Below are positions 2,050-61,432 of a DNA stretch of 64,000 nt, one piece after another. The position numbers and the translations under genes were made by a program. Origin of the DNA: a virus; IMG/VR virus record IMGVR_UViG_3300015265_000001, positions 62,001 through 126,000 of that record, one strand, 5' to 3'. How positions within the stretch are numbered: position 1 is the first letter of the stretch; each line of letters begins with the position of its first letter. Under the pieces are notes generated by a model. That model did not search any database and was not told where the DNA came from. It saw only the letters and a list, made by a program, of their open reading frames with translations.

Positions 2050-2070
2050 TTTTCAAACCTAAATCATTAG
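2050..2070 (+). promoter_or_regulatory. Early-promoter-like motif
   Basis: The sequence TTTTCAAACCTAAATCATTAG matches the shared early motif. It lies about 57 bases upstream of the first Ntn-hydrolase gene, which it would drive together with the second paralogue. Confidence 0.6.
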
Positions 2071-2127
2071 TTTGTCACCTAGAGAACCATATTCTAGAAA
2101 AACGAAATTCGTAAGTGAGGAGTAGAC

Positions 2128-2670
2128 ATGACGACTATCGCGTGGGACGGCATCAAGCTGGTGAGTGATTCACAGGGCACTGCTGGGGTTATTATCCAGC
2201 CAAGTAACTTCAAGAAAATCTACGAGCCTGGAGAAGGCGAGTATTGGGATGTCTTGGGTATTCGTGTTATCGCCGCCGGCATCTCTGGCGACGGTAAAGC
2301 AATCGAGATCATCAAAGAAAAACTTCGCACCGGGATCGACCACAAGACCCGGGTTGATGAACTCGATGAAGTCGCTTTCGGCGTTTTGCTCATCACCGAA
2401 GAAGGCCAGTGCTATCGCTGGCAGATGAACAAACGCCAAGGACGACCAACTCACATGGACTTGCTCCAACTGCTCCCACCGGCAGCAGCAGGATCTGGCC
2501 AAACCTTTGCACTGAGTGTTCTGTCGATTGGCAAGAACGCTGAAACTGCTGTACGTGTAGCCTGCCGACACGATAAGTACTCGGGCGGCGATCTGCAAAT
2601 CTGGGAACTTCCACCAAAACCAGCCGTCAAGTCTAAACGACCTGTGGTTGCCGAACCTACACCCGCTTGA
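2128..2670 (+). CDS. HslV/proteasome-beta-like Ntn hydrolase, Thr type
   Basis: This 180-residue protein starts Met-Thr-Thr-Ile, so removal of Met would expose a catalytic Thr as in HslV. An Asp follows in VSDSQ at the position of HslV Asp17, and NFKKIY matches the region of HslV Lys33. IRVIAAGISGDG fits the HslV stretch KVIAGFAGG, and the C-terminal AGSGQTFALSVL...SGGDLQIW resembles the HslV GSGGNYALAAA...GDICIY region. After about residue 160 a Pro/Lys-rich tail extends past the fold. A GAGGAG ribosome site precedes the ATG. Such proteins form rings and cleave peptides; here the partner unfoldase and targets are unknown. The next gene is a diverged copy. The fold call is good; activity is inferred. 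Confidence 0.75.
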   Translation: MTTIAWDGIKLVSDSQGTAGVIIQPSNFKKIYEPGEGEYWDVLGIRVIAAGISGDGKAIEIIKEKLRTGIDHKTRVDELDEVAFGVLLITEEGQCYRWQMNKRQGRPTHMDLLQLLPPAAAGSGQTFALSVLSIGKNAETAVRVACRHDKYSGGDLQIWELPPKPAVKSKRPVVAEPTPA

Positions 2671-2685
2671 TCAGGAAAACAAATC

Positions 2686-3336
2686 ATGTCCGTAGCAGCA
2701 TTCGACGGTAAACTTCTGGTCACCGACTCGGCGATCTCCACCGACGGTCAAATCAGCCCAAGTGAATTCCGCAAGATCTACACACCAGACGAAGGGGAGT
2801 ACTGGGAGATCTGCGGGGTCAAAGCAATCGCCTTTGCGTTGATCGCCGTGCCCGTGGTTTATCCACAGTTCCGTAAACTGTTGCAAGAAGGGATGACCCA
2901 TTCCTCTGACGCAATGGTGTTTGATAATACGTTCGACGCAATCGTGATTGGCGAAAATGGGGTCGCCTATCAGGTCATGATGTCTGAATCTGTCAAACCT
3001 GACAAACGTTCTGTGCTGAACATCATCCCGGCTACCGGATACCTCGCCATCGGTCCAGGCGATCAATTCGCAACAGCGGTGATGTCCATCGGTAAGTCGG
3101 CCCGTGCGGCGGTGAAGGCGGCGATCAACCTGTGCATCGAGTGCCACGGCAATCTTCAGTCGTTCGAAGTTCCACCGAAACCTGAGACACCTTCGAAACG
3201 ACCTGAACCGCAGGTTGTTGAGTTGGAGACGGTGGTGGATGACGCGCCATTTGAAGCGACCGAAGCTAAACTTGATCAGGTTGAAAAACTCCTCGAGGAA
3301 GCCGAGAAGGTTCTTGAGACCGTCAAGGGGTCGTAA
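2686..3336 (+). CDS. HslV-like Ntn hydrolase paralogue, Ser type
   Basis: This 216-residue protein is a tandem paralogue of its upstream neighbour, 15 bases away. Shared landmarks are DGKLLVTDS, PSEFRKIYTPDEGEYWEICG, a second half with SIGKSARAAVKAA, and the closing EVPPKPETPSKRP. Residue 2 is Ser rather than Thr, so the processed N-terminus would carry a Ser nucleophile or be inactive, and the conserved GSG loop reads GPG. Asp and Lys positions equivalent to the HslV catalytic set are kept. A charged helical tail (about residues 185-216) is absent from the first copy. The pair could form a hetero-oligomer with one weakened subunit, like alpha or inactive beta proteasome subunits; this is inference. 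Confidence 0.7.
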   Translation: MSVAAFDGKLLVTDSAISTDGQISPSEFRKIYTPDEGEYWEICGVKAIAFALIAVPVVYPQFRKLLQEGMTHSSDAMVFDNTFDAIVIGENGVAYQVMMSESVKPDKRSVLNIIPATGYLAIGPGDQFATAVMSIGKSARAAVKAAINLCIECHGNLQSFEVPPKPETPSKRPEPQVVELETVVDDAPFEATEAKLDQVEKLLEEAEKVLETVKGS

Positions 3337-3340
3337 TTTT

Positions 3341-3514
3341 CTATGCTATGTGAACTCGTGAGTTTGCTCCTGCTTTGAAGATAGTTAGCCCTGGCGTACC
3401 CGCGGGAATAGTTTGGAGTCCACTACCCGCACCAGTCGATTGTCCCCCATTAACGATCGGCTGGCCTGGCAATACATCGCTGGGAAAAGCTCCACCTGCC
3501 AAAGATATTTCCAT
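3341..3514 (-). CDS. Tiny Gly/Pro-rich protein
   Basis: This 57-residue leftward gene has an ATG preceded by AGGAGG at ten-base spacing and ends with TAG four bases from the convergent Ntn-hydrolase gene. The product (MEISLAGGAFPSDVLPGQ...) is rich in Gly, Pro, Ser and Thr, contains no membrane segment and looks like a short beta or extended peptide. No family is recognised. The strong ribosome site and intact frame support it as real despite the size. A small virion or spike-tip-like role cannot be excluded. Confidence 0.55.
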   Translation of the reverse strand: MEISLAGGAFPSDVLPGQPIVNGGQSTGAGSGLQTIPAGTPGLTIFKAGANSRVHIA

Positions 3515-3724
3515 CGTGCTCAGTCCTCCTAACCGGGGTCTGAGTGCGGTGGGATTATTTCGCGTTTTTATTTTTTGTTACCGGATAGATATATTTTATA
3601 CTTGCACACGTCATCCGGTTTTTCTCGTAGCTGGGTTTACCGGATGGTGTTATTGGGGGTGGGTCCTACTGTCCTTCGGTTCGCAGGTACTTCTCACAAG
3701 TGTTTACGTCTTTTCTGAGGACAG

Positions 3725-3760
3725 CCCCTGCGGCCTCGTTTGCAGCAGGGGTTTATTTTT
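3725..3760 (+). terminator. Rho-independent terminator
   Basis: CCCCTGC (3725-3731) pairs with GCAGGGG (3745-3751) and is followed by TTTATTTTT. It would end rightward transcripts from the Ntn-hydrolase pair. The rest of 3515-3899 holds three copies of an ACCGGAT/ATCCGG element (about 3580-3650), the PhuZ promoter and no gene that I can support. Confidence 0.65.
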
Positions 3761-3810
3761 CACTTGCGATAAGGATTTTGAGTGATGGAGGCAATGGGTT
3801 GAAGTCATGT

Positions 3811-3834
3811 AAAAAGATTTCAAGCCTACATTAC
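3811..3834 (+). promoter_or_regulatory. Early-promoter-like motif upstream of PhuZ
   Basis: The 24-base element from 3811 reads AAAAAGATTTCAAGCCTACA then TTAC. It is nearly identical to the element at 20926-20949 and close to that at 12004-12027. It lies 66 bases before the PhuZ start codon. Confidence 0.65.
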
Positions 3835-3899
3835 TTGTGTGTTGGCCATAAACGGTCTAACGAATTCTTCCAACTGGTAACTCAAAGAGAACATTTCAC

Positions 3900-4898
3900 A
3901 TGAATGCAAACACTTCTGATCTGGCGTATTTCCTCTGCGGTGGTACCGGTATCAACATCGGCGTAGCGCTCAAGAAAGGCACTCACACCGACAACAACAA
4001 AAACGCGTTCTTCGTCGGCCTGGACTCCTCGGACCGCAACAGCTCCAACGACCTCTTCGAAGTCGTGCAGATGGCCGTTGCCAACGATCCTGACCAAAAG
4101 GCCAAAGGCTCGGGTAAAGTCAAGGCGACCAACTACCCGCAGGCTGAGCAGTTCATCACCCAGTTCCTGACCAAGCACAAACCTCGCGATTACAACATCA
4201 TCGTCTGCTCCACCGGCGGTGGTACTGGTTCGATGCTGGCTTTCGTTCTGGCGCGCATGCTGTTCGAACGCGACCACCTGGTCGTGCTGTGCTTCGTCAA
4301 CGACAAGACCTCCCAGGTCGAAGAAATCAACGTCGTGAACAGCTACCGTTCGTACGCGTCGCTGACCACTCCAGGTTCGCTGAACCGCGTCGTGCCGTAC
4401 ATGGAATTCGACAACACCCTGACCAACACTCGCGGTGAAGTCAACCAGATGATCATCGACAAGCTCGATGTGGCCAGCCTGTTCCTGACCAACGACAACA
4501 AGGAACAAGACCACACCGACCTGAAGAACCTGCTGAACTTCAGCAAGCACTACGGCGTTCCACCGTCCATGTCGCGTATTCGCTTCTACGACGAGAAGGG
4601 CGTTGCCGAGTTCAAAGGCAAAGTGCCGGTTGCAGTATCGTCTTTGTTCAGCAACAGCGATGCGGTCATCCCGCGTTTCAACGGCACCGTGATCCGTTCC
4701 ACCGGTGTGTTCGCCGACGGCGTCAAGCGCCCAAGCAATGCCGAAGAACTGCACATGGTCCTGGACCACGGTGAAGCTCTGAAAGAGCTGGAGAAACACA
4801 TCGAAGCCATGGAAACCCGCAAGGTCGAAACTCAAGGGACCTTCACCCAGCAGAAAGATCTCTCTGCCGGCGCGGATGCAAACGGCTTCTTCCTGTAA
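3900..4898 (+). CDS. phuZ: PhuZ, phage tubulin-like GTPase
   Basis: The 332-residue protein carries the tubulin/FtsZ signature STGGGTGS (residues 104-111) that binds GTP phosphates. An N-terminal nucleotide-binding strand-loop, YFLCGGTGINIGVAL (residues 10-24), also fits. Length suits PhuZ proteins, which polymerise into a bipolar spindle that centres the phage nucleus and moves capsids in the cytoplasm of the infected cell. The C-terminal region (about 285-332) is helical then extended, as expected for the helix and tail that make longitudinal contacts. AAAGAGA precedes the ATG. It is a single-gene unit with its own early-type promoter and a strong downstream hairpin. Codon use is strongly C-ending, suggesting high expression. 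Confidence 0.93.
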   Translation: MNANTSDLAYFLCGGTGINIGVALKKGTHTDNNKNAFFVGLDSSDRNSSNDLFEVVQMAVANDPDQKAKGSGKVKATNYPQAEQFITQFLTKHKPRDYNIIVCSTGGGTGSMLAFVLARMLFERDHLVVLCFVNDKTSQVEEINVVNSYRSYASLTTPGSLNRVVPYMEFDNTLTNTRGEVNQMIIDKLDVASLFLTNDNKEQDHTDLKNLLNFSKHYGVPPSMSRIRFYDEKGVAEFKGKVPVAVSSLFSNSDAVIPRFNGTVIRSTGVFADGVKRPSNAEELHMVLDHGEALKELEKHIEAMETRKVETQGTFTQQKDLSAGADANGFFL

Positions 4899-7716: not shown

Positions 7717-9801
7717 ATGACCGCTGCGGCCCAACATCTGTCTCCCTTCTTAGAAGAAGACTATAAACCGAACCGCGACTTGCTCAAGAACTACCACTAC
7801 ATGGCTGCCGCTTATCTGACGGCCATTTACAAGTGGGATTACAACACAGTACTGGAGCTGGTTGAAAAGGTATTCATTCCAAACCAGAATGGCTACAAGG
7901 AAGCCAAATTTAAAGTATTCAAGAAGAACAAGTACGGCGACCGTGTCCCAGACATCATGCCGGCTCGTGAGTTCTTCAAGACGGTTGAGGACAATAATTG
8001 GCACCTGTCCCCGTCGTTCGTGGCATACACGCACACCAACCAGGAACAGTCGATTAACTCGATTGGTACTGAAACCTTTATTGAATTCCGTCGCCTCTAC
8101 AAAGGCAAGATGAAGGAAGCGATTTCGATTGGCGATAAAGAAGCCACTCAAGCCTTCGACGAAATTCAGAAAGCACTGAAGATCTTTAACAACGCCCAAT
8201 CGGGTGCGTTCTCGTCGTCGGGTACTCCGCTGACGAACAAGTCGGGTCACACCACCCTGACCTCGATCTGCCGTAGCCTGACTTCTACCGCTAACCTCTT
8301 GAACGAGCGGTTGATTACAGGTAACCGGCTACTTCTCAGTTTCAACAGCTCCATGGAACTGTTTATCAGTACCCTGGCGTTTGCTAAGCGTGACAAGATT
8401 CAAGCGGTTATCGACAAGTACCAGATGAACTATGCGACACTTGACCAAGTCATGGACATGGTTAAACGTTGCTCGGCGTATTACTGGAACAACGCTACCG
8501 GCATCGCGGCTATCCGTACGTTCATGGAGAACCTGTCGCCGCTGGAGCTGACGATCATCCTGTGCACGATGGACTTGCGCGGTCTGTACACCACGAACAA
8601 AGAGCTGGTTAGACGGTTCTTCGACGAATGGTGCCAGGTCCCAGAGTTTCCTGCGTCGTTTGAAAACGTTACCACCATCAAGGCGGCTAACGATGACTAC
8701 AAGACACTCTGCACCACGAAGCTGGGTAAAGGCGCCAGTGCTGAACAATCGGCGTATCTCAACGCTTACCACGTCAGCCTGGAAGTTAAGTGGCGTGACT
8801 TCATTGAGGCGTTCCTCAAGGCAGACATTCCGCCGACCGGTATCTTCAACGTCAAAGAGTTGGTACGTGAAAACGTAGTGACTTCTGACACCGACTCCAT
8901 GATCTATTCGATCGATGCTGTTATCGACGACTTCATCACGGATCAGAAAGACGCCCTGGCGTTTAACGGTGTATTGACGTACTTCATTCGTTGTGTGGCA
9001 GTTGACCAGCACGCACGGTTGAGTACCAACATGAACGTGGCGCGGAAGTTCCGCTACCGTCTGAACATGAAGAACGAGTACCTCTTCAGTTCGTACGTGA
9101 CCACGTCTATGTCCAAGCACTATTACGCGTTGCAGTTGATGCTTGAAGGCATTATGTACGATGATCCTAAGTTGGAGCTTAAAGGCGTCCACCTCAGGGG
9201 CATCAAGATCGCACAGAAGGTTCGGGACTTTACGAACAAGCTCATGCGAGACGTACTCAATGCCATCTACAACAAACAGCAACTGGATGCACCGGCTCTG
9301 TTGAAAGGGGTTGGGGATCTGGAGCGTGCGCTCTTTGAAGAGCTGGAGAAAGGTGGTTGGAGCTGGTTGGTTAAGAACGGTATCAAAGAAGAGGCAGCCT
9401 ACAGCAATGCTGATTCGTCGATCTACTTCTACCACGAGATGTGGAAGCAAGTGTTTGCCGAGACCTACGGCGACGCCCCTGAACTGCCGTACCGCGCGTA
9501 CAAGGTAAACGTTACCACCGACAACAAGTCGAAGATGAAGCGTTACATGGAAACCCACGGGGACAATGATGTAGCCAAGCGCATGAATGCGTATATTGAA
9601 ACCAGGGGCGGGATGTCGGCGATCTACGTTCCAGCAGACATGATTGAATCCATTGGGGGTATCCCGAAAGAGATCCTACCGATTGTAGATACACGTTTGT
9701 TGATTGCTCAGAACTTCAAGTCCATTTACGCGATTCTTGAATCGTTGGGCTTGTACATCATGAACGCAAAAGTAACCCGTCTCGTATCTGACGAGCATTG
9801 A
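7717..9801 (+). CDS. Family B DNA polymerase, C-terminal half (motifs B and C)
   Basis: This 694-residue protein carries the polymerase motif B, KIFNNAQSG (residues 155-163, family pattern KxxxNSxYG), and motif C, TSDTDS (389-394, pattern YGDTDS), whose Asp391 and Asp393 would bind the catalytic metals. It has no exonuclease motifs and no motif A. Those are found in a separate protein encoded leftward at 41336-43195. Residues 1-140 would be the remainder of the palm and fingers, and residues 480-694 the thumb. The two products must assemble to make a complete active site for replicating the phage genome. The gene follows a terminator and is closely linked to two small genes downstream. Confidence 0.85.
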   Translation: MTAAAQHLSPFLEEDYKPNRDLLKNYHYMAAAYLTAIYKWDYNTVLELVEKVFIPNQNGYKEAKFKVFKKNKYGDRVPDIMPAREFFKTVEDNNWHLSPSFVAYTHTNQEQSINSIGTETFIEFRRLYKGKMKEAISIGDKEATQAFDEIQKALKIFNNAQSGAFSSSGTPLTNKSGHTTLTSICRSLTSTANLLNERLITGNRLLLSFNSSMELFISTLAFAKRDKIQAVIDKYQMNYATLDQVMDMVKRCSAYYWNNATGIAAIRTFMENLSPLELTIILCTMDLRGLYTTNKELVRRFFDEWCQVPEFPASFENVTTIKAANDDYKTLCTTKLGKGASAEQSAYLNAYHVSLEVKWRDFIEAFLKADIPPTGIFNVKELVRENVVTSDTDSMIYSIDAVIDDFITDQKDALAFNGVLTYFIRCVAVDQHARLSTNMNVARKFRYRLNMKNEYLFSSYVTTSMSKHYYALQLMLEGIMYDDPKLELKGVHLRGIKIAQKVRDFTNKLMRDVLNAIYNKQQLDAPALLKGVGDLERALFEELEKGGWSWLVKNGIKEEAAYSNADSSIYFYHEMWKQVFAETYGDAPELPYRAYKVNVTTDNKSKMKRYMETHGDNDVAKRMNAYIETRGGMSAIYVPADMIESIGGIPKEILPIVDTRLLIAQNFKSIYAILESLGLYIMNAKVTRLVSDEH

Positions 9802-12111: not shown

Positions 12112-14130
12112 ATGAGTCTGAATACCGGTTCCGAAAGCACTTCCTGGAACGAGAACAAGCCTACCGAAAACGCCAACCAGGCTCCAGGTGCTACCGGCAC
12201 CATGGCTCCGCTGGATGGTCTGGCCGGCCTGCTGCGTCTTCCTTCGATGACCTCCGACAACCGCAACCTGAAGGAAGTGGCCGAGACCATCGAGAAACTC
12301 GAAGGCATTTACGAGAATGCCAAGAAATCCACCACCAACGAGCTGCAACGCAAAATCGTTCCGACCGTTGAAATGCTGACCCCGTCCATCTCGGCTCAAC
12401 TGCCGGGCGTCGGTCTGTACGTTGTCTTCGACGGCACCATGTACGTAATGGCCGCGCTGTTCTACAACCGCACGCTGAGCATCGGCGTCGAGCGCATCAC
12501 CGTCAACGCCAACAACATCATGCAGCAAATGTCGGCGCCGCTGACCCCGGCTCAGTACCCGAACAACGTGTTCCTGGAAAAGCTGACCTCCCACTACACC
12601 AAAGTGGCCGAAGCTCAGGGCGTGAAGAACGTCAGCGTCATCAACATGATCGTCGTCGACCTGGAAATGCTGCACCACCCAGAAGCCGGCGATCCGAAAG
12701 ACTGGGCTCACCGTCAGGCGAACTACATCGCCTCCGAGTGGGAAGAAGCGATCATGGTCAAGACCGTTCGCGAAATCGTGGCCAAGGGTTACAACATCCC
12801 GGCTCCGTTCGCTACTCCTGACCAGCCATACGGCAAAGACGGCTGCGCCGAAGCCCGCGTTAACGCAATCAGCTTCCGCGCCAGCAAGGCCGGCACCCTG
12901 ACTCCTGACAACATGGAAGTGATCGTTTCGACGATCAACAACAACAACCAGAGCTCCGGCAACTTCCAGGCGAACTCGAAAGAGATCATCCGGGTTACCG
13001 CTGCGGTCAGCCTGAACGGCGTGTCGTGGGAAGATCACCAGCGCTTCATGATGTCGCACCGCTCGCAAGAGCAAATGAACGCGCTGCAACAGTTCCTCGG
13101 CAACTCCATGGGCATGGGTGTCTACCCGTCGGGCTTCAAGCCACTGCGTCCTGTGATCACCGTCGGCACCGTTCAGGCCGGCGAGCAACTCTGCAACAAC
13201 GGCGGTCTGTTCCCGTTCTTCACCGGTCTGTACTCGCTGATGGCGACCAACAACCAGTACGTCTGGTCCGAAGCTCTGCGCCGTCACAGCGTTGGTGCTC
13301 GCGGTAACCTGGCCGACCTGGAAACTCGTGTCGATCAAATGGTCGGTCAGATCCCTGGTGGCTTCCAGAGCCCAGCGCGTATCCGTCTCGACGAGAAGAA
13401 AATGTCGGACACCGAGCTGGTCAACAACTGGATCCGTCAGAACGTTTCGCCGCACGCAACCTTCCAGATCAACCTGATCCCGGCCGGTCCAAATGCGTCG
13501 ATCAACAACTTCTTCTTCCAGCTGGCCAAACAAGGTCAGAACGCGGCGGAAATCAAAGTTGTTATCGCTCTGATCGATGCCATGACCAAAGGCGGCATGT
13601 CCGAAGCCATCCGCGACAACATCAAAGCTGGCACTGGCTGGGTACCGTCCAAACCGGTACTGATCCCAACCGGCATGATCGCTGTCAACGGCCTGGCCGA
13701 GTACGCCGGCAAGAAGTTCAACACCCAGGAACTGGACGAGATGATGATCTCGCACATCAAGGGCCCGAAAGGTCAACTCGCAGCCGAAAGCCTGCTGTCG
13801 ACCATGTACGGCACCGTCCCGGGCGAAGAGTTCAAGCAACGTGCTCAGAAGCTGCGCGTGGAAACCGGTTCGTCGCTGTTCGACGGTCAGGTTCACATCA
13901 ACGGCTGGGCTCAGCCTCACATCTGGGCGCCTGACTTCATGGCCACCATGTCGAAAGCCATGGACTCCATCGGTCAGCTGAACGTTGCCAACAACCTGGG
14001 CAGCTGGCGCAACACCAGCCTGGCTTCGACGCCTGGCATCGGTCTGGCGACTCTGGTTGGTGCTGGTTCGAACAACGCCACCGGCAACGGTCTGGGCGTG
14101 GCGTACAGCATGAACATGCCGTTCATGTAA
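12112..14130 (+). CDS. chmA: Chimallin-like phage nucleus shell protein
   Basis: This 672-residue soluble protein has a flexible Ser/Asn/Pro-rich N-terminus (1-30), a folded body and a Gly/Asn/Ala-rich C-terminal tail (about 640-672), as expected for chimallin, which uses terminal segments to tile into the closed lattice round phage DNA. Three lines support the call: it lies directly before an RNA polymerase beta-prime N-terminal gene, as phiKZ gp54 lies before gp55; it has the best early promoter in the window; and its codons are among the most biased, indicating very high expression. Size is slightly above the roughly 600-700 residues usual for the family. The alternative is a capsid protein, less likely in this early block. 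Confidence 0.78.
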   Translation: MSLNTGSESTSWNENKPTENANQAPGATGTMAPLDGLAGLLRLPSMTSDNRNLKEVAETIEKLEGIYENAKKSTTNELQRKIVPTVEMLTPSISAQLPGVGLYVVFDGTMYVMAALFYNRTLSIGVERITVNANNIMQQMSAPLTPAQYPNNVFLEKLTSHYTKVAEAQGVKNVSVINMIVVDLEMLHHPEAGDPKDWAHRQANYIASEWEEAIMVKTVREIVAKGYNIPAPFATPDQPYGKDGCAEARVNAISFRASKAGTLTPDNMEVIVSTINNNNQSSGNFQANSKEIIRVTAAVSLNGVSWEDHQRFMMSHRSQEQMNALQQFLGNSMGMGVYPSGFKPLRPVITVGTVQAGEQLCNNGGLFPFFTGLYSLMATNNQYVWSEALRRHSVGARGNLADLETRVDQMVGQIPGGFQSPARIRLDEKKMSDTELVNNWIRQNVSPHATFQINLIPAGPNASINNFFFQLAKQGQNAAEIKVVIALIDAMTKGGMSEAIRDNIKAGTGWVPSKPVLIPTGMIAVNGLAEYAGKKFNTQELDEMMISHIKGPKGQLAAESLLSTMYGTVPGEEFKQRAQKLRVETGSSLFDGQVHINGWAQPHIWAPDFMATMSKAMDSIGQLNVANNLGSWRNTSLASTPGIGLATLVGAGSNNATGNGLGVAYSMNMPFM

Positions 14131-57749: not shown

Positions 57750-58805
57750 ATGACGCAACCAGTGCTTGCTCGACGTTTTATCAATACCCCAACTGTTGAA
57801 GCACTCTACAACGCCGAGAATCCTGAGAGCGTTGTGGATGCACCCGATGACAAGATTGACGACCTGTCGGACGAATACGACAAAGTTGATGGTAACGAAT
57901 CCCTCTACTATCAATACGTCTTTTCCCAAATCCCTCGTAAGCCAGAACTCGATACCGTTCAAGGTACCGAAGGCTTCATGAGCTGGATTGGTGATATGGT
58001 CAGTTCGCTGATCGCGGCTGTAAAGAACTTCTTCAAGTGGGTGTTCAGTTTCTTCACCGGCAAGAAAGAAGTGGCGGCTCGCAAGAACAAAGATCTCGTC
58101 GATAAGCTGGATAAGAACGGGGTCAAGAAACACTTCACGCACTATCCCCAGGGTTACATGAACCTGTGGGCCAGTAAGGCCAAGATCCCAGCGAACCTGG
58201 ATTGGATGCCTAAGGCTATTGATGGCTGGCATGAAGCCACTGGCAAGGTGCAAGCTTACATCAAAGAAGTGGGTAACACTGCTCGTGAGGCTGAAGCACT
58301 GTTTACTGGCAAGCAGCTGAGCCAGACCAAGGAAGCCATGGAGAAGCTCTTCAAAGAGCACCATGAAGCGCTTATCAAGATCTTTGGTAAGGACCCTGCT
58401 CCCTTCATTGGCGGTACCACTGTTTCGATCACTGCTCACGGCAAGCTGTCGTTGAAGGTAGATCCTGATCTGTTGGAGTCCGACAAGAACGCGGGCTTTA
58501 TCAGCAGCGAATCGACCACCCGTTCGATTGCCAAAAGCTTGGAATCGATGAACATCGTGTTCGAAAGCATGATCAACAAATCGGTCGAGTTGGAAAAGGT
58601 CTTCATCAAAGGGCTTAACAGTAGCCTTTCCTTCTCCAAGAAAACTGAGCAAGAGAATCAGGCATCGGCAAGAGCGATCGCTTCCGCGCTCGAAGAGATC
58701 GTGCGCAATGGCATGGCTGGGATCAAGGTATTGGAGACCCTGGTGTTCAAGGTCTACAACACGACCACCAGCATTGTCTCCAGCAGCATCGACGTGAAAG
58801 GATAA
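57750..58805 (+). CDS. Inner-body-type virion protein with maturation site
   Basis: The 351-residue protein has an acidic front (1-74) ending Gly72-Thr-Glu74|Gly75, followed by FMSWIGDMVSSLIAAVKNFF and a strongly hydrophobic aromatic helix. A Lys-rich helical body comes next. Predicted cleavage after Glu74 leaves about 277 residues. The start has weak ribosome complementarity (AACAGG about ten bases upstream). It belongs to a rightward set with the next three genes, six to eleven bases apart. Confidence 0.7.
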   Translation: MTQPVLARRFINTPTVEALYNAENPESVVDAPDDKIDDLSDEYDKVDGNESLYYQYVFSQIPRKPELDTVQGTEGFMSWIGDMVSSLIAAVKNFFKWVFSFFTGKKEVAARKNKDLVDKLDKNGVKKHFTHYPQGYMNLWASKAKIPANLDWMPKAIDGWHEATGKVQAYIKEVGNTAREAEALFTGKQLSQTKEAMEKLFKEHHEALIKIFGKDPAPFIGGTTVSITAHGKLSLKVDPDLLESDKNAGFISSESTTRSIAKSLESMNIVFESMINKSVELEKVFIKGLNSSLSFSKKTEQENQASARAIASALEEIVRNGMAGIKVLETLVFKVYNTTTSIVSSSIDVKG

Positions 58806-58811
58806 TTCATC

Positions 58812-59297
58812 ATGCGCTTGAATTGTTTTAACAAAACCTTGTTGGTGGCGATGGCCATGGAGCAACAGGGGATTGATGGATTGAATCCACGTTTCGGTAC
58901 GGGGCGGTCGGTTAGCGACAATGTGTTCAGTTATGTCGAGCAAGGTAGTGCCGGTGCTGGTCTACTGATCGATAAGGTGGATTTGGGCGAGTTGTTCAAA
59001 GGCATTCCCCAAGACATCAGTGGTCTGACCTTTGGTGCACCTGAAACCGCCAACCTGCAACCTATCGATGATCTGGTGGACAGTCACGTAGCAGAAAGTC
59101 TGGTGGTTCTCGATAACGTGGATTATGCCGACGCTGCTGACGAAATGAGTGTCCTGTTCTTTAACTGGTTACGGTTCGTGGGTTTGAGCGATCTGACTCG
59201 CTTCGAAGTTGAGCTGGGTACGAGCGACGGCTATCTCCACGTAACTGCTCGCCGAGCCACCTACTACCGCGGCACCGTAGTCATCAAGTATCAGTAA
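58812..59297 (+). CDS. Unknown, probable virion-associated protein
   Basis: This 161-residue acidic protein lies six bases after an inner-body-type gene and ten before another. It opens with a short basic, hydrophobic stretch (MRLNCFNKTLLVAMAM) that is too short and charged for a clear signal peptide. It ends with strands (TRFEVELG, YLHVTARRATYYRGTVVIKY). No protease site followed by an aromatic helix is present. Linkage suggests a virion or assembly role; nothing more can be said. Confidence 0.6.
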   Translation: MRLNCFNKTLLVAMAMEQQGIDGLNPRFGTGRSVSDNVFSYVEQGSAGAGLLIDKVDLGELFKGIPQDISGLTFGAPETANLQPIDDLVDSHVAESLVVLDNVDYADAADEMSVLFFNWLRFVGLSDLTRFEVELGTSDGYLHVTARRATYYRGTVVIKYQ

Positions 59298-59307
59298 GGA
59301 GAAGGGA

Positions 59308-60729
59308 ATGAATTTGTACTTTGAACTGGGGTTGCTCGGTATGCTGATGTCCGGTAAGGCCGGACAGCTGGACCCCGAAAAGAACGCACACATGATCGAG
59401 CTGCTCAATACCCTGGGTTTGGGTTACGCAGTTAATGTCACTGAAGAAGGGATGGATCGTGTTAAGGAACGTCTGTTCTCGGTGATTGCCGCAATTGAAG
59501 ACCGCTTGGCTTACTTCGACGGCAGTGAGCTGGAAGTCAACTGGCCGGTCACTCAGTTCCTCAACGAACTGTTGAACGACGCCAAGAACGGTGGTATTAC
59601 TCCAGAGCGCAATATCGCCATGCAGGTGTGCGCGCTGGGTAACAAGACCAGCGAGAACATGGGCGGTGGTGCAGTTAACGACTGGATCGAATTTGCCAAC
59701 AACCACCTGCGTTACTTCCTCGAGATCTACGAAGGTCACGAACAACCGAACATGGTGGGTATTCAGTTCAACATCCGCATGATGGAATATGCGGAGCGGG
59801 TACTGAATATCATCGACGTGTTTGTGACCAGCCGCCTTGGCATGTTGATGGGCGCAGAGGAATACGCTCCTTCCCAACTCGAAGACCTGCCGGAAGCTGT
59901 AGCAGTAGATTTCGATGAGCCGGAAGACTGCAAGCGTGATGACGACTGTGACTGCGGTTGCAAGTTCGACCACACACTGCAACTGATTCAGGGCATGGAA
60001 GATTACCTGAACGGCGAGGACACCTTTGCGTCCAACTACCTCATTGGCGTTGCAAACGCACGTAACGCTCATATGGGCGCTGTGACGGGTACTGAGGGCG
60101 CAATCCTTGACGGTATCAAGGAAATGGCTACAAAGGCCTGGGAAACGATCTCAGCGTCTTTCAAGGCTATCAAGGATTGGTTTACTTCCTCCGATGAGAA
60201 GGATGCAAACAAAGCCACAGCAGATTCCGGTGATGCCAACAAGAAGGATCTGGCGGCGGCCAAGGAAACCTCTGGTGATCAGATCAACCCTGCTGCCAAG
60301 GCCGGGCTGGTAAAGCTGGCTGCCGAAGCTGACCCATCTGGTGCCTTCAGTACCATCGTGGGTAGTCTTAATAGCAAAGCCGACGCGGCCACCGCTATTG
60401 ACAAGCTGTTGGGTCTGTTGAACAAACAGAGTGGCTACGGCGAAGCACTCGGTGCGGCAATGGAGTTGGCCCAGCAAAAACTGGCGGAGTTGAAGACCGC
60501 GGCCAGTAACGTGTCTGGTAAAGATGAGTCCAACAAGGAAGTCGTCGCCACTACCCGCAAGTCGACCCAGGAGAAGGTCGCTGCTGCGAAGGATAGCCTC
60601 AAGGGTCTTAAGGATAAGGTTACTGCCCACAAGAAGCTGGTAAGCGGCATCCGTAAGGCCGTTGCTGGTATCAACACCAAGATCTTCCCTGCGGCAGAGC
60701 CTGCTGAACCTAAAGCTAAAAAGGAGTAG
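59308..60729 (+). CDS. Inner-body-type virion protein with long propeptide and Cys cluster
   Basis: The 473-residue protein has the longest front of the family. Residues 1-263 form a mixed domain, then Gly261-Thr-Glu263|Gly264, then AILDGIKEMATKAWETISAS and a Lys/Ala-rich helical body like the paralogues. Near residues 208-222 the propeptide has a dense cluster, Cys-X5-Cys-X-Cys-X-Cys with a nearby His, in an acidic setting (DDDCDCGC), which could bind metal. If the head protease cuts after Glu263, more than half the precursor would be released. AAGGAGAAGG precedes the ATG. Confidence 0.68.
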   Translation: MNLYFELGLLGMLMSGKAGQLDPEKNAHMIELLNTLGLGYAVNVTEEGMDRVKERLFSVIAAIEDRLAYFDGSELEVNWPVTQFLNELLNDAKNGGITPERNIAMQVCALGNKTSENMGGGAVNDWIEFANNHLRYFLEIYEGHEQPNMVGIQFNIRMMEYAERVLNIIDVFVTSRLGMLMGAEEYAPSQLEDLPEAVAVDFDEPEDCKRDDDCDCGCKFDHTLQLIQGMEDYLNGEDTFASNYLIGVANARNAHMGAVTGTEGAILDGIKEMATKAWETISASFKAIKDWFTSSDEKDANKATADSGDANKKDLAAAKETSGDQINPAAKAGLVKLAAEADPSGAFSTIVGSLNSKADAATAIDKLLGLLNKQSGYGEALGAAMELAQQKLAELKTAASNVSGKDESNKEVVATTRKSTQEKVAAAKDSLKGLKDKVTAHKKLVSGIRKAVAGINTKIFPAAEPAEPKAKKE

Positions 60730-60733
60730 TGAG

Positions 60734-61432
60734 ATGGCCTTGGAAAACGTTCACCCAGAGGTGCTTGCTCGTATTACAAAGCAGCTCCCTGAAGGCTACA
60801 CGGTTCTGAGTGCAGAATCTGAATCTGAAACCAGCGCCGTGTTCGCCGTTGAAAAGAACGGTGTTCAGCAAAAGGCCAAAATGAGCAAGGGTAATCTCCT
60901 GCGCGTTATGGCTCACAAGGCACCCGAGGTTTCAGCCAGCGAAGGGGATTCTCTGAGTTTGGTGATTCAGGAGCTGTCCGACGCATACGGACTCCATCTG
61001 TTGGACAAGGTGGATTACGACGTGGAAGACAAAGTGGTTGAGTTTGGCGGTAAGCCTCAGTACTTGGTCTCTGTGCCGATGCTGAATACCAGTATCAGCC
61101 TGAGCGGGGTATTGATCTTTACCGTTAAAGACAAGGCTGCTGCACCACGCCCTGCCGAATGCATTGCTGTTGATCTGGAAGAACAGCGGGTTCGTCTGGC
61201 TCTTGGGGGTAAGGTGTTCCAGGTTGCCGATCCAGTTGGTGTGGATAACCATCTTTCTCAAGAGCTTGCAGAAAAAGTCGCTGAGTTTGTGAACTCCCTC
61301 GGCTTTAAGTTGTCGCTGGAAGTAGACGACTTCCAGAACGCTGAAGTTATCAGCCAGTTGAATGACGGTATCTCCAACCTGATCATTCTCCAGCTGAGCG
61401 GCGGTCTGGTTACACCTGTTCGCTGGAAGTAA
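60734..61432 (+). CDS. Unknown, probable virion-associated protein
   Basis: This 232-residue protein starts at the ATG at 60734 with AAGGAG upstream; the frame start at 60662 lies within the previous gene and is rejected. It is beta-rich with a helical front. The sequence SASEGDSLSL contains Ala-Ser-Glu70|Gly, which fits the Ser/Ala/Gly-X-Glu rule for head-protease cleavage, though the aromatic helix of the inner-body family is absent. It ends this operon at a strong terminator. Function not recognised. Confidence 0.62.
   Translation: MALENVHPEVLARITKQLPEGYTVLSAESESETSAVFAVEKNGVQQKAKMSKGNLLRVMAHKAPEVSASEGDSLSLVIQELSDAYGLHLLDKVDYDVEDKVVEFGGKPQYLVSVPMLNTSISLSGVLIFTVKDKAAAPRPAECIAVDLEEQRVRLALGGKVFQVADPVGVDNHLSQELAEKVAEFVNSLGFKLSLEVDDFQNAEVISQLNDGISNLIILQLSGGLVTPVRWK

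Follow-up and report, generated by a model that had tools for sequence, protein, structure and literature searches.

A conserved tandem of phage proteasome homologs with an altered second copy in a nucleus-forming jumbo phage

We found that a 64,000-nucleotide stretch of viral DNA (the window; bases 62001-126000 of a 227-kb virus record) encodes two adjacent members, here A and B, of the phage proteasome-homolog family PPH (Fuchs et al. 2021, PMC8665760), which corresponds to PHROG 1040. Judging from its residues, A is most likely a fully equipped and presumably active Thr-type Ntn hydrolase. The explanation that we prefer, though tentatively, is that a phage Ntn hydrolase was duplicated, giving the fully equipped A together with a partner, B, that is impaired or regulatory, in an arms race.

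The genes for PhuZ, a DNA polymerase (7717-9801), the nuclear shell protein (12112-14130) and phage RNA polymerase subunits are present in the window, which identifies the source as a nucleus-forming jumbo phage, and the gene order is that of phage EL. Both ORFs that a preliminary description had reported in tandem at positions 2128-3336 were present, in the same frame and with 15 nt between the stop codon of A and the ATG of B, and the phuZ gene that it had placed beside them was identified (Table 1).

Table 1 Features of the A-B locus and its flanks, in window positions
Feature	Position	Strand	Evidence
Promoter-like motif TTTCAAACCTAAATCATTA	2051-2069	+	Resembles the EL promoter annotated before phuZ
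CATATTCTAGA, possible promoter or leader element	2088-2098	+	Before A in all A-B tandem relatives
ORF A, Thr-type phage proteasome homolog, 180 aa	2128-2670	+	PHROG 1040 match, residue alignment, fused model
ORF B, Ser-type paralog of A, 216 aa	2686-3336	+	PHROG 1040 match, residue alignment, AF2, Foldseek
Second copy of the promoter-like motif, before phuZ	3818-3836	+	Motif search
phuZ (tubulin), neighbour outside the A-B pair	3900-4898	+	PHROG 4733, E 3.6e-75

The PHROG 1040 profile, 'peptidase HslV family', was matched by A with E 2.1e-30 and by B with E 5.5e-17, and a family profile of 48 sequences searched against the PDB matched 20S proteasome beta subunits (E 1.7e-8, in an alignment beginning at Thr1) as well as BPH, which bears out the earlier view of both proteins as HslV/proteasome-like. 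NCBIfam HslV models gave no match to A at E 0.01, and TIGR03692 was matched weakly by 7 of the 48 relatives. Pfam searches with A and B singly returned nothing relevant, PADLOC gave no match, and a profile from the B proteins alone found no proteasome relative by sequence in the PDB. The AlphaFold2 model of B (pLDDT 90.2, pTM 0.77) showed strands with a single helix between them (58-67), followed by helices 126-134 and 139-149 and a C-terminal helix (191-215), i.e. the proteasome core fold without helix H2, as in PPH. This family, of about 140 residues, was described from phages and prophages as lacking helix H2 and belonging to group I with HslV and BPH, its function being unknown and no AAA+ partner being noted (PMC8665760). 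Foldseek with the B model returned BPH first (5ovu, E 2.3e-5), then 20S beta and HslV (6kr1, E 1.1e-4), so a proteasome-like Ntn fold is matched at E 1e-5 to 1e-4, and the A portion of a fused A-B model matched 20S beta5 and BPH. The fold comparison with HslV suggested in the preliminary description thus yielded a confidently predicted Ntn fold for B (pLDDT 90), with the qualification that BPH and 20S beta resemble the PPH fold more closely than HslV does.

The active sites were then compared in proteasome numbering. A holds every catalytic position (Thr1, Asp17, Lys33, Gly47, Ser129, Asp166 and Ser169), whereas B retains Ser1, Asp17 and Lys33, with Gly47 replaced by Ala, Ser129 by Pro, and Asp166 and Ser169 by Cys; the motif around the last two reads HDKYSGG in A versus LCIECHG in B. 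The Thr of A and the Ser of B directly follow Met1, with no propeptide in either protein, and Asp14 of the DS motif and Lys30 of the KKIY/RKIY motif correspond to Asp17 and Lys33, so that these HslV landmarks of the earlier account were all located. The changes it had listed for the second copy (Thr to Ser, GSG in A versus GPG in B, and a charged tail, which corresponds to the predicted acidic C-terminal helix 191-215) were all recovered, but the list was incomplete, the loss of the Asp166/Ser169 motif and the Gly47 to Ala replacement having been overlooked. We do not take the latter to mean inactivation, because Ala occupies this position in 43 of 87 relatives.

In the six lineages with a B copy, Ser1, Asp17 and Lys33 are invariant. 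Position 166 is Cys or Asn in all six, Asp166 being gone throughout; at position 129 the B proteins have Pro, Asp, Ser or Thr, and Ser129 is lost in four of the six, L005 and L009 retaining Ser/Thr. Asp166 is carried by 72 of 86 family relatives, and the Ser129/Asp166 pair is not a defining PPH feature in PMC8665760. These two residues protonate the N-terminal amine, and in yeast beta5 the T1S exchange cuts activity by only 40-45% (one substrate) while D166N drastically reduces it (PMC4792962). As the T1S enzyme keeps over half of its activity, Ser1 does not appear to be the key lesion of B. Nor need Ser1 alone inactivate it, because three single-copy relatives from other phages (the L124 phage, Rhizobium RHph_N1_15 and Caulobacter CcrBL1) combine Ser1 with intact Ser129, Asp166 and remaining site; these also led us to abandon Ser1 as a unique feature of the window pair. 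The first active-site survey leaned towards Thr because its loci had been fetched partly with the peptide MTTIAWDG, and a second survey added phages found by tblastn.

It is possible, if somewhat unlikely, that A and B are two separate active homo-oligomeric enzymes with different substrates, B being a genuine serine-type Ntn hydrolase in which other residues (Asn/Cys166) hold the amine. Ser is the nucleophile in many Ntn hydrolases, and both the invariance of Ser1, Asp17 and Lys33 among B proteins and the stand-alone Ser1 relatives with otherwise intact sites count in favour of such an enzyme. The T1S proteasome is still active too, but the yeast enzyme is strongly impaired by D166N (PMC4792962), and the stand-alone Ser1 relatives keep Ser129 and Asp166, which B mostly does not. 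Since the nucleophile side is kept and most of the amine-positioning side is lost, we prefer to see in B a slow or regulatory partner of A.

At least 183 phage records with family members were found by tblastn with A. The A-B tandem, with its order and spacing kept, is present in six lineages of related jumbo phages: the window phage, L001, L002 (near copy L003), L004 (near copy L006), L005 and L009. In the tree, the A proteins form one clade and the B proteins another (100/100), L005 and L009 being sisters in both, and the stem branch of B is long (1.42); the separate clades and the long stem are as would be expected had a duplication led first to rapid change and later to constraint. The long stem, together with the acquired acidic helix and the absence of Asp166 from every B protein and of Ser129 from most, could also mean that B is a non-catalytic structural paralog, much as the alpha subunits and the inactive beta subunits of the proteasome are, or a decoy or inhibitor of host HslV or Anbu, the Ser being a leftover. 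We consider this unlikely: a dead enzyme should drift at Ser1, Asp17 and Lys33, yet these are invariant in B proteins only 53-78% identical to the window copy.

Under the preferred explanation, an ancestral PPH, encoded by a single gene before phuZ as is gp15 in phage EL, would have undergone duplication on this branch of the nucleus-forming jumbo phages. Duplication seems recurrent across phages, because other pairs occur in the L012 jumbo phage (a Thr/Thr tandem, with a third copy elsewhere in the genome), in Shewanella phage FishSpeaker (an adjacent Ser/Thr pair) and in Aeromonas phage 2L372D. The FishSpeaker pair appears to stem from a duplication of its own, its placement being unsure on long branches. 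In 2L372D (L141 2432-3885), the product of the first gene is a very divergent HslV-like protein, and that of the second is a PPH whose tail is long and acidic. The third gene of the L012 phage (L105 1723-2241, minus strand) lies far from the tandem and has the catalytic positions. A Salmonella jumbo phage has been reported to carry two copies that do not adjoin each other (PMC7823757). We found also that a C-terminal extension, PxxPxxxSxRP, is common to A, B, EL gp15 (L013) and both tandem L012 proteins; it occurs in EL-type jumbo-phage members, is absent from the small-phage members looked at, and might be a targeting or docking motif.

The EL-like promoter motif occurs twice in the 64 kb, versus 0.02 occurrences expected by chance. 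As one copy precedes A and another phuZ, the pair and phuZ are probably separate transcription units with their own promoters, as far as the motifs indicate. Of the early promoter previously proposed over the pair beside PhuZ, the EL-like motif before A was thus recovered, but phuZ has its own copy. The motif before A is conserved in L001, L002, L003 and L009 and absent in L004, L005 and L006. For the CATATTCTAGA element, which has one match in the window, an equally stringent match arose in 42 of 100 shuffles. The region upstream of A (1528-2110) is of two dissimilar types, L001, L002 and L009 resembling the window and L004 and L005 being different, which suggests promoter or leader exchange. 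The gap of about 560 nt between B and phuZ (3337-3899) is without a conserved ORF, is 82-89% identical among relatives and might contain a regulatory element, RNA or DNA; an Rfam search of it gave no match. We rejected it as an exceptionally conserved RNA, because phuZ and other neighbours match it in conservation, A and B being the divergent genes. A 57-aa antisense ORF 3' of B was rejected as a gene, being frameshifted in several relatives.

In alignments with five relatives, protein identity was 57-80% for A and B, 95-98% for the gp14-like neighbour, and for PhuZ 92-96% in four of the five and 78% in L001; nucleotide identity falls at the start of A and sharply recovers at the stop of B. 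Against two relatives, B ranked first and A second of 53 window genes in amino acid divergence and pN (0.24 versus a median of 0.10), and their pS was somewhat raised (0.62-0.66 versus 0.50; ranks 4 and 8 of 53). The dN/dS values, mostly 0.1-0.3, place both genes under purifying selection. Both faster change and an exchange of divergent alleles between phages fit this divergence, the latter because pS is raised too; either, we infer, would be usual for genes in host conflict, at which the fast evolution of A and B hints. The distance matrices of A and B were correlated (r = 0.86, exact Mantel p = 0.017), and those of A and phuZ were not (r = -0.01). The nearby small genes 5340 and 6218 also track A (r = 0.85 and 0.82), so that the co-divergence is only suggestive of a link between A and B and does not specifically prove contact. 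At 57750-61432, a group of uncharacterised genes (PHROGs of unknown function) diverges nearly as fast as A and B. That the pair processes phage proteins, e.g. of the head or inner body, instead of host factors is very unlikely in our estimation: the family is present in many lytic phages and some copies adjoin lysis or terminase genes, but the pair diverges far faster than adjacent genes and lies in the PhuZ, DNA polymerase and nuclear shell region, and phiKZ has a separate serine head protease (review PMC13282480).

In the preferred explanation, removal of Met from A, expected from the small second residue, would expose Thr1 for attack on the substrate, with Lys33 and Asp17 acting as base and Ser129 and Asp166 holding the N-terminal amine. 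B would turn over slowly or not at all, or would act as a regulatory partner that assembles with A or adjusts it. To model both together, we used the natural A-B read-through with the A stop codon read as Trp, on a shallow paired alignment with 6 fused rows. The A and B domains were ordered, but the prediction (pTM 0.45) gave no confident A-B interface, so mixed rings stay a proposal, and the hetero-oligomer considered possible in the preliminary description is still possible but gained no support from this model. The AAA_2 and AAA models matched nothing in the 227-kb record, which extends the reported absence of an HslU-like unfoldase from the window to the whole record; the pair would work without a dedicated phage unfoldase, and host HslU could serve it instead. 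A Cpn60-type chaperonin gene (578-aa frame) lies outside the window, at 199142-200335 of the record (L095/L096). Host or defence proteins, probably cleaved or bound, would be the targets, and this would account for the unusually fast divergence of A and B. A more ambitious and distinctly improbable version is that nucleus-forming phages destroy fast-changing host defence proteins with a viral proteasome-like particle of two subunits, a catalytic one of the Thr type and a pseudo-catalytic one of the Ser type that gates or directs it.

The family and its phage home are already published, and adjacent HslV-family genes are already annotated in at least one Aeromonas phage; the conserved tandem with an altered second copy was not described in the literature searched, in which we found no tested function for phage proteasome homologs. 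The conserved pair, one copy of which is impaired, is a natural setting for testing mixed-particle formation. As A and B are the most divergent of the genes compared, and a protein nucleus shields the DNA of this phage, the host and its defences are a concrete place for a substrate search.

With HslV the pair shares the fold and Thr1/Asp17/Lys33; it differs in the HslU partner, not found in the 227-kb record, in the missing NCBIfam HslV match of A and in a fold match below BPH and 20S beta. BPH, the best Foldseek match of B, forms a double-ring complex, apparently without unfoldase (PMC8665760), but it is cellular and about 14% identical in sequence, the phage proteins having been predicted here as single chains. 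The 2L372D (gp210/gp211) and FishSpeaker pairs are likewise adjacent proteasome-like genes of large phages, and FishSpeaker has one Ser-type copy with positions 129 and 166 altered; their sequences are distant, however, and gp210 is another HslV-like protein. EL gp15 occupies the corresponding place, just before phuZ and in divergent orientation to gp14, is 38.7% identical to A and has a similar C-terminal motif, PETPSKRP, but it is a single Thr-type copy with complete catalytic positions. The closest likeness is to PPH: phage-encoded proteins with a compact group I fold in which a single helix (H1) precedes the H3-H4 pair, H2 being absent, an N-terminal Met-Thr/Ser without propeptide, Asp17 and Lys33, and, in A, the GSG and DxYSGG motifs. 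The window proteins differ in being longer (180-216 versus about 140 aa), in their C-terminal PPxPxxxSxRP extension, and in forming a conserved tandem whose B copy lacks the Ser129/Asp166 side and carries an acidic helix.
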